Shown here in pieces: positions 19,975 through 33,056 of a stretch of 34,740 nucleotides of DNA (positions within the stretch are counted from its first letter, which is position 1; each line of letters opens with the position of its first letter). Position numbers and translations under genes: made by a program. The notes under the pieces are model-generated. The model was not told where the DNA came from. It made no database searches and was given only the letters and a program-made list of their open reading frames with translations. This stretch comes from an uncultured Clostridia bacterium (GTDB taxonomy: Bacteria > Bacillota > Clostridia > Oscillospirales > Ruminococcaceae), in assembly GCA_944388265.1 (NCBI GenBank), contig CALXIC010000236.1, forward strand, positions 1 through 34,740, given 5' to 3'.

Positions 19975-20029
19975 ACATTTGGCCGGATGTTGTTTTCCTG
20001 CGAAGAGTTTTACACATCCGGTCGGATGT
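19975..20029 (-). promoter_or_regulatory. Two inverted repeats in the dnaN leader
   Basis: ACATCCG-GT-CGGATGT at 20014-20029 is a perfect 7-bp inverted repeat. ACATTTGG-CCGGATGT at 19975-19990 is a related imperfect one with the same CGGATGT half. Their centres are 39 bp apart, near four helical turns. They may be an operator pair or RNA hairpins in the dnaN 5' leader. Confidence 0.45.
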
Positions 20030-20042
20030 ACTCTCTATCCTG

Positions 20043-20082
20043 CCAAAAATAACATCATATAAAATAAATAATAAATAAAATT
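20043..20082. other. AT-rich DNA unwinding element
   Basis: About 40 bp are almost only A and T (AAAATAACATCATATAAAAT followed by AAATAATAAATAAAATT). The stretch lies between dnaN and the DnaA-trio, in surroundings that are GC-rich. This is where duplex opening is expected. Confidence 0.75.
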
Positions 20083-20090
20083 CGTCGTTG

Positions 20091-20120
20091 TATTAGTAGG
20101 CCGGTGGAATTGGTGGAAAA
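20091..20120 (+). other. DnaA-trio-like element next to two abutting DnaA boxes
   Basis: TATTAGTAG (20091-20099) read 3' to 5' is GAT-GAT-TAT, the repeated G/A-A-T/A triplet of DnaA-trios. It is followed by G-CC and two directly adjoining boxes, GGTGGAATT (20103-20111) and GGTGGAAAA (20112-20120). Order and polarity (boxes, GC spacer, trios, AT-rich stretch) match the B. subtilis basal unwinding system. Confidence 0.65.
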
Positions 20121-20210
20121 AGTCCGTTTTCCCCTTGAACGCGGCCTTTTTTGGGACGAAAAACCTGGCGGAAAAAGCGGTCGAAAACTTGTGGAAACGG
20201 TGGAATGATT

Positions 20211-20234
20211 TTTTCCACGTGAAAAAGTGGAAAA
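20211..20234. other. Inverted DnaA-box pair containing a parS-like core
   Basis: TTTTCCAC (20211-20218) faces GTGGAAAA (20227-20234) over an 8-bp spacer. The left box merges into TTTTCCACGTGAAAAA, which differs at only two of 16 positions from the parS consensus TGTTNCACGTGAAACA. Confidence 0.6.
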
Positions 20235-20311
20235 CGTTTCCGTGGAAGCACGGTGGAAAGGTTTTTCCGTTTTGTGGAAGACTCAGCCGGTTTTCCACCG
20301 AAAAAGTAGGG

Positions 20312-20336
20312 TTTTCCACATTGATTCTGTGGAAAA
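20312..20336. other. Two perfect DnaA boxes face to face
   Basis: TTTTCCACA (20312-20320) and TGTGGAAAA (20328-20336) are exact inverted copies separated by 7 bp. Another box, AGTGGAAAA, follows immediately at 20337-20345. Confidence 0.8.
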
Positions 20337-20400
20337 AGTGGAAAACTTGGGGAAAATTCGTCCGTTTTCCGAAGAATCCGACGCGATTTGGCCAAAAAAA

Positions 20401-25696: not shown

Positions 25697-27067
25697 ATGA
25701 GTACGATTGCAGCGATTGCCACCCCGCTGGCGCTGGGCGGCGTATCGATGATTCGAATTTCCGGAAGTGGGGCTTTCTCGATTGCGGAACGCGTTTTTTT
25801 GCCGATCAGTGGGGAAAAACTTTCGGATAAGGCGGGTTATACTGCTTGTTATGGGAACTTTGTGGGGAATACGGGCGAAACGGTGGACGACGGCATCGCG
25901 CTCGTCTTCCACGCCCCGCACAGCTACACCGGCGAGGATGTTGTCGAGCTTTCCTGCCACGGCGGGGTGTGCATCACGAGAGAAATTCTCCGTCTGGTCT
26001 TAGACGCCGGCGCATCGCTTGCCGAGCCCGGCGAATTTTCCAAACGCGCCTTCTTAAACGGCAAAATGAGCCTGACGCAGGCGGAAGGGGTCATCGATCT
26101 GATCCATTCCAAATCGATGCAGGCGGCGCGCAGCGCGCATTCGCAGATGGACGGCGCGCTTTACCGCCGCATTTCGGGGATGAAAGAGGCGCTTTTGGCG
26201 ATTGCCGGGCACCTCTCCGCCTGGGCGGATTATCCCGAAGAGGACTTGGAAGAGGTGGAATCCTCCGATCTCTTGGGACAGCTTTCCGCTTTGCAGCGGG
26301 AGAGCAAAAAGCTCCTTGCCACCTTCGACTCCGGCAAGCTTCTGCGCGAAGGGGTGGAAACGGTGCTCGTCGGCAAACCGAACGTCGGCAAATCGACGCT
26401 GATGAATTTGCTGTCGGGTGCGGAAAAGAGTATCGTCACCTCCATTGCCGGCACCACCCGCGACGTGGTGGAAGAGACGGTACAGCTGGGCGATGTGCTG
26501 CTGCGGCTGGCCGATACGGCGGGCATCCATGAAACCGACGACGTCGTCGAACAGGTGGGTGTCAAGCGCGCCATCGACCGCATCGAAACGGCGGGACTGG
26601 TGCTGGCGGAGTTCGACTATACGCTGCCGCTCTCGGAAGAGGACAAACAGCTCACCGAAGTGCTCGAAAAACAGGAAGTGCCGGTGCTGGCGCTGCTGCA
26701 TAAAACCGACCTTGCCGGACAGATGGACGAGGAGTATCTGCGGGCGCATTATCCGAATTTGGTGATGACCTCGAAAGACGATCCCGAAAGCCTGACCCGC
26801 ATCGAAGAGGCGGTCACCCGGCTGCTGCATTTGACCGGATTTGATCCGTCGCAGGGCATTTTGGCCAACGAACGCCAGCGCGGCTGTGCGGTGTTGGCGG
26901 ACCGCGCCATCGGCGAAGCGGTGGACGCCCTCCAGGCCGGGATGACGCTGGACGCCGTCGATCTGTCGGTGGAGGAAGCGCTCGATGCGCTGCTGACCCT
27001 CACCGGCGAGCGGGTGACCGAAGCGGTGGTCGATCAGGTTTTCCACAATTTCTGTGTGGGTAAGTGA
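25697..27067 (+). CDS. mnmE: tRNA U34 modification GTPase MnmE
   Basis: MnmE with MnmG makes the 5-carboxymethylaminomethyl (or aminomethyl) group on U34 of certain tRNAs. The 456-residue protein shows the N-terminal [15 protein letters not shown]...IRISG, ELSCHGG and [23 protein letters not shown]. The GTPase motifs are GKPNVGKS (226-233), GTTRD and [10 protein letters not shown], with HKTD (335-338) at the G4 position where NKxD is usual, and the C-terminal FCVGK has the catalytic Cys. I choose ATG 25697 because GAGG lies 8 bases upstream; GTG 25691 is too close to it. mnmG follows within 20 bp. Confidence 0.95.
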
Positions 27068-27086: not shown

Positions 27087-28973
27087 ATGAATTACGAATT
27101 AGGAAGTTATGATGTCGCGGTGATCGGCGCGGGGCATGCCGGGGTGGAAGCGGCGCTGGCCGCCTCCCGGTTGGGGACAAAGACGGTGCTCTTTACCCTC
27201 AGTCTGGACGCCATCGCCAACATGCCCTGCAACCCCTCCATCGGCGGGACAGCCAAAGGGCATTTGGTGCGGGAGATCGACGCACTTGGCGGCGAAATGG
27301 GCAAGGCGGCGGATGCCACCTTTTTGCAAAGCCGGATGCTCAACCGCGGCAAAGGACCGGCGGTGCACAGTCTGCGCGTGCAGGCCGACCGCCGCGCCTA
27401 TCATCATTATATGAAGCGCGTGCTGGAACACGAGCCGAATCTCGAAATCAAACAGGCGGAAGTAGTGGACGTCGGCTTTGACGACGAAGGCTGCTTGAAC
27501 CGCGTCTATACCAAACTCGGCGCCTGCTACCATGTGGGGGCGGCGATCATCTGTACCGGCACCTATCAGCGGGCGATGATCCATGTCGGCGAACTTTCTT
27601 ACGAAAGCGGCCCGGACAGCAGCCTGCCGTCGGTGGGGCTGACGGATAAGCTTAAAGAATATGGCATCACCATCCGCCGCTTTAAGACGGGAACGCCGGC
27701 GCGCGTCCACCGCCGCAGCATCGATTTTTCGAAGCTCGAAAAACAGGACGGCGACAACCCCATCACCCCCTTTTCTTTTGGCACCAAGGGCGAACTCAAA
27801 AACCAGATGAGCTGCTACATCGGCTACACCAACGAGCGCACCCATCAGGTGATCCGCGACAACCTCGACCGTTCTCCCATCTATTCGGGGCGCATCCACG
27901 GCATCGGGCCGCGCTACTGCCCAAGCTTTGAGGACAAGGTGGTGCGCTTTGCCGATAAGCCGCGGCATCAGCTTTTCATCGAACCGATGGGGCTGGACAC
28001 CGAGGAAATTTATTTGCAGGGAATGAGTTCCTCTCTCCCGGAAGATGTGCAGCTGGCATTTTTACGCACCATCGAAGGGCTGGAACACGTCGAGATGATG
28101 CGAAACGCCTACGCCATCGAGTACGACTGCGACGACCCGCAGGAACTGCTGCCGACCCTCGCGTTTAAGAAAATCCCGGGGCTTTACGGGGCAGGGCAGT
28201 TCAACGGCACCTCCGGCTACGAAGAAGCCGCCGCGCAGGGGCTGATTGCCGGCATCAATGCCGCGCATTTTGTCCAAGGCAAGGAACCGCTGGTGCTCGA
28301 CCGCGCCTCCTCCTATATCGGGACGCTCATCGACGATCTGGTCGTCAAGGGATGTTCCGACCCCTACCGCATGATGACCTCTAGGAGCGAATACCGCCTG
28401 ATTTTGCGGCAGGACAACGCCGACCAGCGCCTGACGCCGATCGGGCACGAACTGGGACTCATTGACGATGCGCGGTATGCCGATTATCTCGAAAAACAGC
28501 GTTTGATCCAAGAAGAACTCGACCGCCTGCGCCATACGACAATTTCCCCGCAGGAAGGGTTAAACGCCCTGCTTGTTTCACGTGAAACATCGGCGATGAC
28601 GACGGGGCAGCGCGCTGCCGAACTGCTGCGCCGCCCGCAGCTTTCCTACGCCGATTTGAAACCCTACGACCCGACGGCGCCCGATCTGCCGCGCGAGGTG
28701 ACCGAGCAGGCGGAAATTGAAATCAAGTACGAAGGCTATATTGCCAAACAGTACGCCCAGGTGGCGGAGATGCGGCGCATGGAAGGGAAAAAGCTTCCCT
28801 CGATGGATTATGCCGACATCCGCGGACTGCGGCTGGAAGCGATCGAGAAATTAAACAAAGTGCAGCCTTTAAACATCGGGCAGGCATCGCGCATTTCGGG
28901 CGTAAGCCCGGCGGATGTGTCGGTGCTGCTGATCTGGCTGGAACAACACGAAAAGGAAGAACGTCATGATTGA
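27087..28973 (+). CDS. mnmG: tRNA U34 modification FAD enzyme MnmG
   Basis: The 628-residue FAD enzyme partners MnmE in wobble-uridine modification. It shows [21 protein letters not shown] (dinucleotide-binding motif), [87 protein letters not shown] and the C-terminal ALEAI-type helical region [36 protein letters not shown] 27087 is the start; the AAAGG upstream is rather distant (12 bases). A perfect parS site is written into its coding sequence at 28574. It overlaps rsmG by 8 bases. Confidence 0.97.
28574..28589. promoter_or_regulatory. parS: parS site inside mnmG
   Basis: TGTTTCACGTGAAACA is a perfect palindrome and an exact match to the parS consensus TGTTNCACGTGAAACA bound by Spo0J/ParB. 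It lies about 8.4 kb from the oriC boxes. Confidence 0.95.
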
Positions 28974-29679
28974 CCGTGCATTTTTATTGGAAGAAGCAGC
29001 GAAGATGGGGATCACCCTCACCGCGGAGCAGGCTGTACTCTTTGACCGCTATGCCGCACTGCTGGTGTCGTGGAATGAAAAAATCAACCTGACCGCCATC
29101 ACCGAACCGGCGCAGATCTGCGACAAGCATTTTGTGGACAGCCTGCTGCTGTGGCAGGCGGTGGAGCTTCCGGCGGGTGCGGCGGCGATTGACGTCGGCT
29201 GCGGCGCAGGTTTTCCGTCCATCCCCTGTGCGATTGTGCGCGGCGATGTGGAGTGGACGCTCTTAGACAGCCTGCAAAAGCGCATTCACTTTTTGGAAAC
29301 GGTGTGCGCAGAACTTTCCCTCCCGGCGGCGGCGGTGCATGCCCGCGCGGAGGATGCGGGAAAGGATGCGGCGTACCGCGAACAGTACGATTTGGCGACG
29401 GCGCGCGCCGTGGCGAATCTGCGCGATCTGTCGGAATACTGCCTGCCGTTTGTCAAGGTGGGTGGCATGTTTGCCGCGCTCAAGGGCTACGAGGTGGAAG
29501 AGGAATTGACCGAAGCCGCCCGCGCCATTGAAACGATGGGCGGAGCGTTTGAAGGGGTGGAGAAATTCACCTTGCCGGACGGTTCGCGCCGTGCGATTGT
29601 GAAGATTCGAAAAGTTTCTCCCACGCCCCCGGCGTATCCCCGCACTGCGGCGAAGATGAAGAAAAAACCGCTGGTATAA
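28966..29679 (+). CDS. rsmG: 16S rRNA (guanine-N7)-methyltransferase RsmG
   Basis: RsmG (GidB) methylates N7 of G527 (E. coli numbering) in 16S rRNA; its loss gives low-level streptomycin resistance. The 237-residue protein has [29 protein letters not shown], the SAM-binding motif [32 protein letters not shown] and [36 protein letters not shown] 28966 overlaps the end of mnmG by 8 bases and has AAGGAAG as ribosome-binding site. It is the last gene of the run and is followed by a strong terminator. The C-terminus is extended and basic ([11 protein letters not shown]). Confidence 0.97.
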
Positions 29680-29941: not shown

Positions 29942-30277
29942 TTATTTTTTGTCTAAAAAAGCCTGATCCCTGGACGGGATGCCGTCCTCATCGGAGCGCA
30001 TCCGTTCGGCGCGGACGCGAAGCCCATATTTTTCCCGCAGACGCAAAATCTCCGCCATCATAGGGGAGGCATGGTGCACGTCGATTGCTTCCTGATCGCG
30101 CCAGCTGTCGATGAGCAAAATCGTCTCCGGATCGTCCAGCGGCTGATAGTACGCATACTGCAAATTGCCATCCTCCGCACGGATGGCGCTGACCACGCCG
30201 CTTTGGGTCATTTCCTCGGCAAAGAGACGCGCACGATCGCCGGTACCGGTATAATAAAGATGCAGGGTGATCGCCAT
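29942..30277 (-). CDS. ABM-fold putative quinol monooxygenase (YgiN-like)
   Basis: The 111-residue protein MAITLHLYYTGTGDRARLFAEEMTQSGVVSAIRAEDGNLQYAYYQPLDDPETILLIDSWRDQEAIDVHHAS has the antibiotic-biosynthesis-monooxygenase dimeric ferredoxin-like fold. This includes the E-x-G-N/N-x-x-Y-x-Y strand (EDGNLQYAYY), the L-I-D-x-W-x-D-Q-x-A helix start and the conserved histidine in DVHHASP. Family members oxidise quinols or degrade haem. GGAGGG lies 5 bases before ATG 30277. It follows noc on the same strand by 57 bp and may be co-transcribed or use its own weak promoter. Confidence 0.85.
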   Translation of the reverse strand: MAITLHLYYTGTGDRARLFAEEMTQSGVVSAIRAEDGNLQYAYYQPLDDPETILLIDSWRDQEAIDVHHASPMMAEILRLREKYGLRVRAERMRSDEDGIPSRDQAFLDKK

Positions 30278-30334: not shown

Positions 30335-31138
30335 TTAGTGCTTCGGAGGTTTCGGCTTTAAGGGAATTTGAATGGTGTAGGTGATGGTGTCTTCGGTCTG
30401 CACCTGTTTGGCAGTTGCCAAAATGCCGCTTTGCTTCATCGCATCCACCGCCTTGTTGATGCTGTTGACAAAAAGCCGCACGTCCTTTGCCAAAAAAATG
30501 CGCTTTTGCCGGTGCTCTACCGAACGCCGCCGCCGCACCAGCTCTTCGGTCTGCGCGACGGTCAAATGCCCGTGTCCCACCTCGTCGATCACACTGCTTC
30601 GCAGTTCGGGCGGGCCGAGTTTTAATAAGGCGCGCGCGTGCCGTTCGCTCAAGTCGTAGGACAGGATTTTTTCCCGCTCTTCCGGTGTAAAGCGCAGCAG
30701 CCGCAGCTTGTTGGCAAGGGTGGACTGCGCCATCCCCAGTTTTTTGGCGGCCTCTTCCTGCGTGATCTGCCAATCGGTCAAAAGGGTCTGAATCGCTTCC
30801 GCAAATTCAAAGAGATCGAGGTTTTCCCGTTCCATGTTTTCAATCAACGCCAGCACGGCGGATTCGCGGTCATCTTTTTCCACAATGATGCAGGGCACTT
30901 GTGGAAAACCTAAGAGTTCGCAGGCACGCAGCCGCCGTTCGCCCGACACCAGCTCCAGACGGCCGTCCTCCACCCGCCGCACCGTCAACGGCTGCAGCAG
31001 GCCGTTTTCCTGAATGGAATGCGCCAGCGACGAAAGCTGTTCGGCGGAAAAGCGTTTGCGGGGCTGTGCGCGGTTGGCGGAGATCTTGTCGCAGTCCACC
31101 AAAAGTACCTGATTGACGATTGTTTCTTTCGTTTCCAT
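30335..31138 (-). CDS. noc: Nucleoid occlusion protein Noc (ParB-family paralogue)
   Basis: The 267-residue protein has the ParB CTPase domain (ISANRAQPRKRFS, VSGERRLRACELLG) and a central helix-turn-helix (ITQEEAAKKLGMAQSTLANKLRLLRF). The four positions that separate Noc from ParB specificity read Gln138, Lys144, Arg149 and Arg166, close to the Noc set Q/K/K/R and unlike the R/T/A/G-type set of ParB. Position next to rsmG-soj-spo0J also matches noc in Bacilli. Noc spreads on DNA and blocks division over the nucleoid. The N-terminus (METKETIVNQVLLVD) lacks the amphipathic membrane helix of B. subtilis Noc. ATG 31138 is preferred over 31147 because AAAGGA lies 9 bases upstream. The gene runs opposite to its neighbours. 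Confidence 0.87.
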   Translation of the reverse strand: METKETIVNQVLLVDCDKISANRAQPRKRFSAEQLSSLAHSIQENGLLQPLTVRRVEDGRLELVSGERRLRACELLGFPQVPCIIVEKDDRESAVLALIENMERENLDLFEFAEAIQTLLTDWQITQEEAAKKLGMAQSTLANKLRLLRFTPEEREKILSYDLSERHARALLKLGPPELRSSVIDEVGHGHLTVAQTEELVRRRRSVEHRQKRIFLAKDVRLFVNSINKAVDAMKQSGILATAKQVQTEDTITYTIQIPLKPKPPKH

Positions 31139-31167
31139 CGCATCCATTCCTTTCTTCGTCTGATTTC

Positions 31168-31196
31168 AGTATAAGGGAAATAATGCATCATTTCCA
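31168..31196 (-). promoter_or_regulatory. Probable noc promoter
   Basis: The minus strand reads TGGAAA (31196-31191), a 17-bp spacer and TATACT (31173-31168). The -10 is good and the -35 weak. Confidence 0.55.
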
Positions 31197-31308: not shown

Positions 31309-31324
31309 TGTTTCACGTGAAACA
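31309..31324. promoter_or_regulatory. parS: parS site between noc and soj
   Basis: TGTTTCACGTGAAACA is a second perfect parS. It ends 24 bp upstream of the soj -35 box and lies in the divergent noc/soj promoter region, so Spo0J spreading from it could also influence both genes. Confidence 0.95.
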
Positions 31325-31413: not shown

Positions 31414-32208
31414 ATGGGAAAAATTATTGCCATTGCCAACCAGAAAGGCGGCGTTGGAAAGACGACGACCGCCGTAAACCTTGCGGCGGCGTTGGGAAAA
31501 GCGAAGAAAAAGACCCTTTTGGTGGACATCGACCCGCAGGGCCATGCGACCAGCGGACTCGGAATCAACAAACGGGCCATCGGCTGTTCGTCTTATGACC
31601 TGGTGCTGGGAGAAGCCCGCGCCAGCGAAGCGATTCTGCAAACGGAATTTAAAAAATTGTGGGTGATTCCGTCCAATATGCAGCTGGCGGGTGCGGAAGT
31701 GGAACTTGCCAAACGCGAACACCGCCTGCAAAACCTCAAGCGCGCGCTGGTGCCGATCAAGGAGGACTTTGATTATATTTTGATCGACTGTCCGCCTTCG
31801 CTGGGGCTGGTGACGCTCAATGCGCTGATCGTAAGCGACAGCGTCTTGGTGCCGATTCAGTGCGAATACTATGCGCTCGAGGGGCTGTCCCAGCTGATGG
31901 CGACGGTGCGACAGGTGCAAAAGCTCTACAATCCCGCGCTGGACATCGAGGGTGTACTGCTCACGATGTACGACAAACGCTTGAATCTCACCATTCAGGT
32001 GGTGGACGAGGTCAAAAAATATTTTCCGAAAAAGGTGTATAAAACGACCATTCCGCGAAACGTGCGCCTGTCGGAAGCACCAAGCTTCGGCGAACCGGTG
32101 CTTTACTACGACAAGGGATCGAAAGGTTCGCGCGCCTATGAGGATCTTGCCGCGGAATTTCTGAAAAAGCAAGCGAAACTGGAAAAGAAAGGAACGAACG
32201 CCGAATGA
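31414..32208 (+). CDS. soj: Chromosome partitioning ATPase Soj (ParA)
   Basis: Soj is a DNA-binding ParA ATPase that with Spo0J moves or segregates origins and also regulates DnaA. The 264-residue protein has the deviant Walker A KGGVGKTT (11-18), [17 protein letters not shown], Walker [20 protein letters not shown], and the C-terminal [23 protein letters not shown] typical of chromosomal ParA. AAGGAGG lies 6 bases before ATG 31414. Its last codons overlap spo0J by four bases (ATGA), so the pair is translationally coupled. Confidence 0.97.
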
Positions 32209-33056
32209 AGAAAAAGAGTCTGGGCAAAGGGCTCGACGCGCTGTTTGAAGACAACAGCACGACGCTCTCGTCCGGTACCGAACGGGTGCGGATGGCGGAC
32301 ATCGTCCCCAACAAGGAGCAGCCCCGCCGGGATTTTGATCTGGCGGCGCTCGAACAGCTGGCGGCGTCCATAAGAGAACACGGCGTGATTCAGCCGCTGG
32401 TGCTTCGCCCGATGCCAAACGGCACCTACCAGATTGTGGCGGGGGAACGGCGCTACCGCGCGTCCCGCATGGCGGGATTGTTGGAAGTGCCCGCCGTCGT
32501 GCAGGAGCTGACCGATCAGGAAGCGATGGAACTGGCGCTCATTGAAAACCTGCAGCGCGAGGATTTGAATCCGCTGGAAGAGGCGCAGGGGTATCAGGCG
32601 CTTTTGGATGAGTACCACCTCACCCAGGAGGAAATTGCCAAAAGCGTGGGTAAGTCCCGCCCGGTGGTGGCAAACGCCCTGCGGCTGCTGCATCTGCCGG
32701 AACCGGTACTGCAATATATCAAGGAAGGCGCACTGAGCGCCGGACATGCCAGAGCGCTCTGCGGGATGGACGATCCCAAGCAGCAGATTGCGCTGGCGGA
32801 AAAAGCGCTCAAAAGCGATTTGACGGTGCGGGAGGTCGAAAAGCTCGCCAAAAACCTGGAACCCTCCACGGTGAAGCACCGCACGCGCGACCACTATTAC
32901 GAAGAAATGGAAGTGGCGCTCACCAATGAACTGGGGCGCCGCGTTCAGGTGCAGGGAACCCGGAAAAAGGGCAAACTCACCGTCGAATTTTATGGCAAAG
33001 AGGATTTAAGGGAACTGGCCGACCGGCTGCTGCAGCTGCTGGACGACCGCGACTGA
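32205..33056 (+). CDS. spo0J: Chromosome partitioning protein Spo0J (ParB)
   Basis: This is a CTP-dependent DNA clamp that loads at parS. The 283-residue protein starts with the ParA-stimulating peptide [13 protein letters not shown], followed by NKEQPRRDF, the CTP-binding motif [15 protein letters not shown] (79-93), [20 protein letters not shown], the helix-turn-helix [27 protein letters not shown], and the C-terminal dimerisation domain. The specificity positions are Arg152, Ala158, His163 and Gly180, ParB-like at Arg and Gly. Two perfect parS sites are in the window. It overlaps soj by four bases; serS follows after 19 bp. Confidence 0.97.

Follow-up and report, generated by a model that had tools for sequence, protein, structure and literature searches.

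The nucleoid occlusion protein Noc prevents bacteria from placing their division septum across the chromosome, and its accepted mechanism requires simultaneous binding of DNA and the membrane. Excerpts of Adams et al. (2015, PMC4331003) describe the first ten residues of B. subtilis Noc as required for membrane binding and function, and report a predicted N-terminal helix and a highly conserved N-terminus in all Noc homologues examined. A first-pass annotation of a 34,740-nt stretch of DNA from an uncultured Clostridia bacterium (hereafter the window) proposed a Noc that is recognizable by its specificity residues, lacks the anchoring helix and is encoded opposite to rsmG and soj. This locus raises the question of whether the protein is a Noc, whether its anchor is truly missing, and what a Noc without an anchor would do. 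Among the titles and abstracts listed in searches of the open-licence literature on nucleoid occlusion, Noc and Clostridia, none concerns an anchorless Noc.

Assignment of the window protein to Noc

The open reading frame lies at 30335..31138 on the minus strand, as first annotated, and encodes 267 residues comprising a ParB-type CTPase domain, a ParB helix-turn-helix (HTH) and a Noc C-terminal domain, an assignment drawn from the reading frame, domain and structure matches, a tree and conserved columns. PF02195 (ParB_N) and PF17762 (HTH_ParB) match well above the Pfam cut-offs, and the sequence contains the GERR motif and the Glu-Asn of the ENxxR motif. The closest solved structures, 7ol9, 7ng0 and 7nfu, are all named nucleoid occlusion protein and represent the B. 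subtilis and G. thermoleovorans proteins.

The specificity region (residues 138–166; 30641..30727, minus strand) carries Q138, K144, R149 and R166 at the relevant alignment columns. R149 is ordinary, since the combination QKRR occurs in 70 of 189 Clostridia Noc proteins; QKKR occurs in 86. Similarly, excerpts of Jalal et al. (2020, PMC7383237) report that both Arg and Lys prevail at positions 179/184 in selected variants specific for the Noc binding site (NBS). In a FastTree phylogeny of 225 core rows, restricted to the window's class and thus without Bacilli Noc, a single branch with full support separates 189 Noc from 36 ParB sequences (out of 58 eligible ParB). The window protein falls on the Noc side, where it groups with L019 and L002; of the 50 alignment columns with 90% or higher conservation among Noc, it keeps 47. 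Since it clusters on the tree with 188 other Noc sequences and away from ParB, we identify it from its sequence as a Noc orthologue; the four residues by which the first-pass annotation had recognized it, the tree, the gene neighbourhood and the conserved columns all agree.

The NCBIfam Noc model TIGR04285 does not decide the matter alone: the window protein scores 264.6 bits over residues 11–259, below the 315-bit cut-off, while the ParB paralogue of the window reaches 240 bits. The Noc proteins of two relatives also fall below this cut-off, so that none of three genomes exceeds it. The cut-off appears to have been set for Bacilli, and we therefore do not treat it as defining. A scan of genome contigs with the window protein as the single query returned one distant ParB-like locus.

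The neighbourhood holds a soj (parA) gene, assigned by profile and domain matches (31414..32208, plus strand), followed by a parB (spo0J) paralogue with R/A/H/G at the specificity columns (32205..33056, plus strand). An exact parS site, TGTTTCACGTGAAACA, lies in the divergent noc–soj gap (31309..31324) and a second one inside mnmG (28574..28589); these two are the only parS sites in the genome at up to two mismatches. The site in the gap could suggest that the window protein serves as another ParB acting on parS or regulates the noc–soj promoter region, and yet its base-reading positions are of the Noc type (Q138 and R166, against R and G in the ParB paralogue), and parS sites between genes of the mnmG–parB neighbourhood are common in relatives with an ordinary Noc. 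ParB/Spo0J shares the fold and the CTPase motifs with the window protein but differs from it at the specificity columns and forms a separate clade. With an R/A/H/G ParB and two exact parS sites adjoining, binding of the window protein to parS in place of the NBS is unlikely, and we regard either role as very improbable. For the same reason, ParB and Noc probably still divide the labour, with ParB acting on parS and Noc at other sites.

The missing N-terminal anchor and its recurrence

The start codon of noc is the ATG at 31138, with the ribosome-binding site AAGGA (31148..31152, minus strand) nine bases upstream. The only alternative in-frame upstream start, at 31147, adds MDA alone; it has no ribosome-binding site, and a stop precedes it by six codons. 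Consequently, no upstream start restores a helix, an outcome that had been raised as a check on the original claim. The N-tail METKETIVNQ (31109..31138, minus strand) has, apart from Met, no bulky hydrophobic residue among its first six positions and forms no amphipathic helix. After these ten residues, the chain runs directly into strand β1 (VLLVDCDKI). B. subtilis Noc has about 28 residues before β1, a length that fits the alignment numbering. The best nine-residue hydrophobic moment within the first 18 residues is 0.37 in the window protein versus 0.62 in the B. subtilis N-terminus. The helix is thus absent, as first proposed. According to excerpts of Jalal et al. (2021, PMC8429893), α1, α2 and an eight-residue loop precede β1 in Noc. 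Compared with B. subtilis Noc (PMC4331003, PMC8429893; PDB 7ol9), the window protein has the domains and specificity positions in common but lacks α1, α2 and the linker, carries Arg at the equivalent of K184 and is encoded by an inverted gene. A single-sequence AlphaFold model of the protein was set aside at a mean pLDDT of 50.6.

We compared the N-tails of 110 Noc proteins from the window's family, 79 from other Clostridia families and 27 from other classes, with starts picked by a simple ribosome-binding-site score. Noc was fetched from 108 relatives of the 120 noc-positive genomes in the family and from 80 of 122 in other Clostridia, where one protein longer than 345 residues (L138) was left out; in other classes, 27 of 40 loci gave a Noc row. 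Noc proteins of other classes often open with a helix resembling that of B. subtilis (MKEQLSKLFGL...; MKEQLSKLFGLS..., MGEKLSRFWSFG...), and such a start was found in 10 of 27 with a loose pattern that also catches a few dissimilar starts. The typical N-tail in the window's family is instead a short tip, MAGFFxKEKxVNKV, with an adjacent bulky pair in 82 of 110 proteins. The window protein lacks this type of tip, and the same is true of L002 (MALTKTKEK...) and L019 (MKYKLMK...), its two closest neighbours on the tree.

By our own rule, an N-tail counts as anchor-poor if no more than one of its residues is F, I, L, V, W, Y or M, with the initial Met and the last four residues disregarded. This label applies to 17 of 110 Noc proteins in the window's family and to 21 of 79 in other Clostridia families; no bulky residue at all is left in four (the window protein among them) and 12, respectively. 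The label requires 26 changes on the tree and the stricter one 12, counts that do not infer direction. In 12 of the 38 anchor-poor rows, an in-frame start further upstream might supply a bulky pair; the other 26 offer no such start. The anchor-poor proteins of other families (L162, L193, L194, L195, L199, L200, L201, L213 and others) have N-tails of 2–10, hardly hydrophobic residues; unlike the window protein, they are encoded by genes that are not inverted and belong to separate anchor-state changes on the tree. The missing anchor is real, yet recurrent across Clostridia. The survey of Clostridia N-termini, of the kind proposed in the first-pass annotation, shows that this state is not a peculiarity of the window gene.

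Excerpts of PMC8429893 name I65, Q66, I81, R86, K103, I116 and Q120 as the residues that hold the anchor in the G. thermoleovorans apo structure. We considered whether these had been lost together with the anchor; anchor-poor Noc proteins resemble the others at these columns, and we see no such co-loss.

The window protein might still work as its B. subtilis counterpart does and reach the membrane via a partner, or by a weak N-terminal contact that a count of hydrophobic residues misses. In fact, excerpts of PMC4331003 describe the helix as binding weakly and B. subtilis Noc complexes as functional when not saturated with N-termini, and most Noc proteins of the window's family retain the two-residue hydrophobic tip. 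Against this, the window protein has neither a bulky residue other than Met among its first six positions nor a longer N-tail, and B. subtilis Noc without its first ten residues is described in the same excerpts as losing both membrane binding and function. We consider a B. subtilis-like membrane role unlikely.

Binding sites and a possible membrane-free role

With NBS sites counted per genome as matches to ATTTCCCGGGAAAT with at most one mismatch, noc-positive genomes of the window's family have a mean of 4.6 sites (n = 120) versus 0.9 in noc-negative ones (n = 26; Mann-Whitney p = 7e-8), and in other Clostridia the means are 5.3 (n = 122) versus 1.5 (n = 66; p = 1e-15), in comparisons that ignore phylogeny, genome size and G+C and in which assembly gaps may account for some noc-negative calls (G244, G260 and G316, for example). 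The gene was called present at an E-value of 1e-46 or better and absent at 1e-40 or worse, and eight genomes in between were set aside. The reversed pattern, used as a control, is rare in all groups (means 0.1–0.5). Genomes with QKRR and QKKR proteins have means of 5.0 and 4.8.

Genomes with an anchor-poor Noc carry as many sites as those with other Noc proteins (means 5.1, n = 38, and 5.0, n = 150; p = 0.81), versus 1.3 in genomes without noc (n = 92); restricting the anchor-poor set to the 26 proteins whose start is unambiguous gives a mean of 5.6. NBS counts thus track the presence of noc and not that of the anchor, which suggests that many related bacteria lost the anchor while keeping Noc DNA binding sites.

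The genomes of the anchor-poor proteins from other families carry NBS sites; in that of the window (84% complete), such sites are weakly represented, in contrast to B. subtilis. It has one exact site, inside an open reading frame, against a Markov expectation of 0; three at up to one mismatch against 0.5–1.0; and 26 at up to two mismatches against 13–15, with a maximum of 21 in 16 simulations. This enrichment is weak, and NBS binding in the window's organism is consequently suggested by the specificity residues and by the relatives. The genome has 145 TTTCNNNNGAAA sites, and among the 50 of them listed, one has a CCGG core. G068, the genome of one of the two nearest relatives, encodes Noc, yet no NBS occurs in it even with one mismatch allowed. 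Exact 12-bp cores are scarce in 12 near-complete relatives (0–11 per genome) and, judged by eye, not clearly missing from the far side, which gives no clear sign of terminus depletion.

Excerpts of PMC5540599 describe S. aureus Noc, an orthologue of the window protein, as restraining replication initiation in addition to its role in occlusion, with an NBS consensus obtained by ChIP-seq. This makes a membrane-free task for Noc conceivable. In contrast to S. aureus, the window has no site near dnaA; in fact, no NBS within two mismatches occurs anywhere in its 34,740 nt, so that nothing in it points directly to a role at oriC.

Our main reading, to which we assign a probability of roughly 0.6, is that the window protein is a Noc-type CTP-dependent DNA clamp without membrane insertion of its own that stays bound to the nucleoid, and whose function we infer. 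By homology, the dimer would load at NBS-type sites resembling ATTTCCCGGGAAAT, bind CTP, close, and slide along nearby DNA. Because the N-terminal anchor is gone, the complex would not insert itself into the membrane and would remain on the nucleoid. The anchor may have worn away stepwise, from a full helix as in other classes, through the short hydrophobic tip of most of the family, to none in the window. The likeliest role would depend on DNA binding without a direct tether, e.g., restraint of replication initiation or an influence on division through a partner.

It is plausible that the missing helix makes the window protein act differently. Since it lacks the N-terminal amphipathic helix, we class it, on its sequence, as a variant Noc orthologue and leave it out of the B. 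subtilis-type occlusion factors that bind the membrane. More broadly, and at somewhat less than even odds, Clostridia Noc may often be membrane-free, its anchor having been worn to a two-residue tip and repeatedly lost, whereas the residues that read DNA and the NBS were kept. If so, tethering would be a single application of Noc, conspicuous in Bacilli, and the protein and its sites would be retained for another reason. If many Clostridia retain Noc and its sites without an anchor, either the mechanism differs there or the protein has another conserved job, and the anchor-poor proteins form a natural set for separating these two possibilities.

Inversion and surroundings of the gene

The usual gene order in the fetched loci of the window's family is mnmG–rsmG–noc–soj–parB, and noc keeps its place in the window. 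In B. subtilis, noc likewise lies between rsmG and soj. The window gene that we take to be rsmG from its position (28966..29679), a conserved neighbour in relatives, is on the plus strand together with soj and parB, while noc is on the minus strand. The inversion relative to rsmG and soj, as first described, is real and not unique: one or more of rsmG, soj and parB were present in the stretch at 172 loci, and in seven of these noc runs against every such neighbour, namely in the window, in L063 and L073, which belong to one genus, and in L072, L091, L098 and L123; L107 has a mixed orientation. Inverted noc genes occur with and without the tip, which L063 (MAVIFQQK) and L073 (MAAIFQQK) keep. 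The inversion is rare and has probably arisen several times; it is probably incidental, and we see no link to function.

A small open reading frame with an antibiotic biosynthesis monooxygenase (ABM) domain (29942–30277) immediately follows noc, likewise on the minus strand, and no counterpart of it was found in the window-family loci examined. Upstream, a sigma-70-like promoter, TGGAAA-17-TATACT (31168..31196, minus strand), is recognizable by consensus match only.

Such surroundings could mean that noc is decaying after relocation and inversion, without an important function: the inverted gene stands beside an unrelated reading frame, its N-tail is lost and NBS enrichment in its own genome is weak. 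However, the reading frame is intact, with a ribosome-binding site and a promoter-like site. The end branches of noc and its neighbour parB are of similar length on the tree (0.60 and 0.58) and 47 of the 50 conserved columns are kept, and we therefore see no sign of decay. Decay is quite unlikely, and a nucleoid-bound clamp remains our preferred reading.

A near-perfect 20-bp palindrome, GGAAATAATG/CATCATTTCC (31176–31195), spans the -35 element and spacer of the promoter-like site. It is possibly an operator; by our own estimate, chance alone gives about one such palindrome per window. An Rfam search of the window gave no match.

The window contains dnaA, dnaN, a recF-like gene, gyrB and gyrA, and yet it has no copy of the canonical DnaA box TTATNCACA. 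Since TTTTCCACA occurs nine times and TTTTCCAC, in both orientations, packs the dnaA–dnaN gap (20018–20400; further sites at 618–649, 27039–27063 and 30876–30908), the window's sequence suggests the use of a variant box. Two convergent copies of TTTTCCACA lie within the noc coding region, at 30876–30884 (plus strand) and 30900–30908 (minus strand), in a geometry similar to that of the pair at 618–626 and 641–649. We rejected DnaA boxes inside noc as a feature of the gene: there are two in the window, and relatives show just a slight excess, with 1.9 per 10 kb in noc versus 0.6–1.6 in other genes.

MinC gave no match in the window's genome (G000), which is weak evidence at a completeness of 84%. 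We note that two other loci, L173 and L191 (G156 and G189, same genus), contain two tandem noc-type genes adjoining rsmG. Genome G117 has two separate Noc-type genes on one contig (L089 and L125), each with its own mnmG–rsmG–soj–parB neighbourhood; this may reflect either duplication of the region or a mixed assembly.
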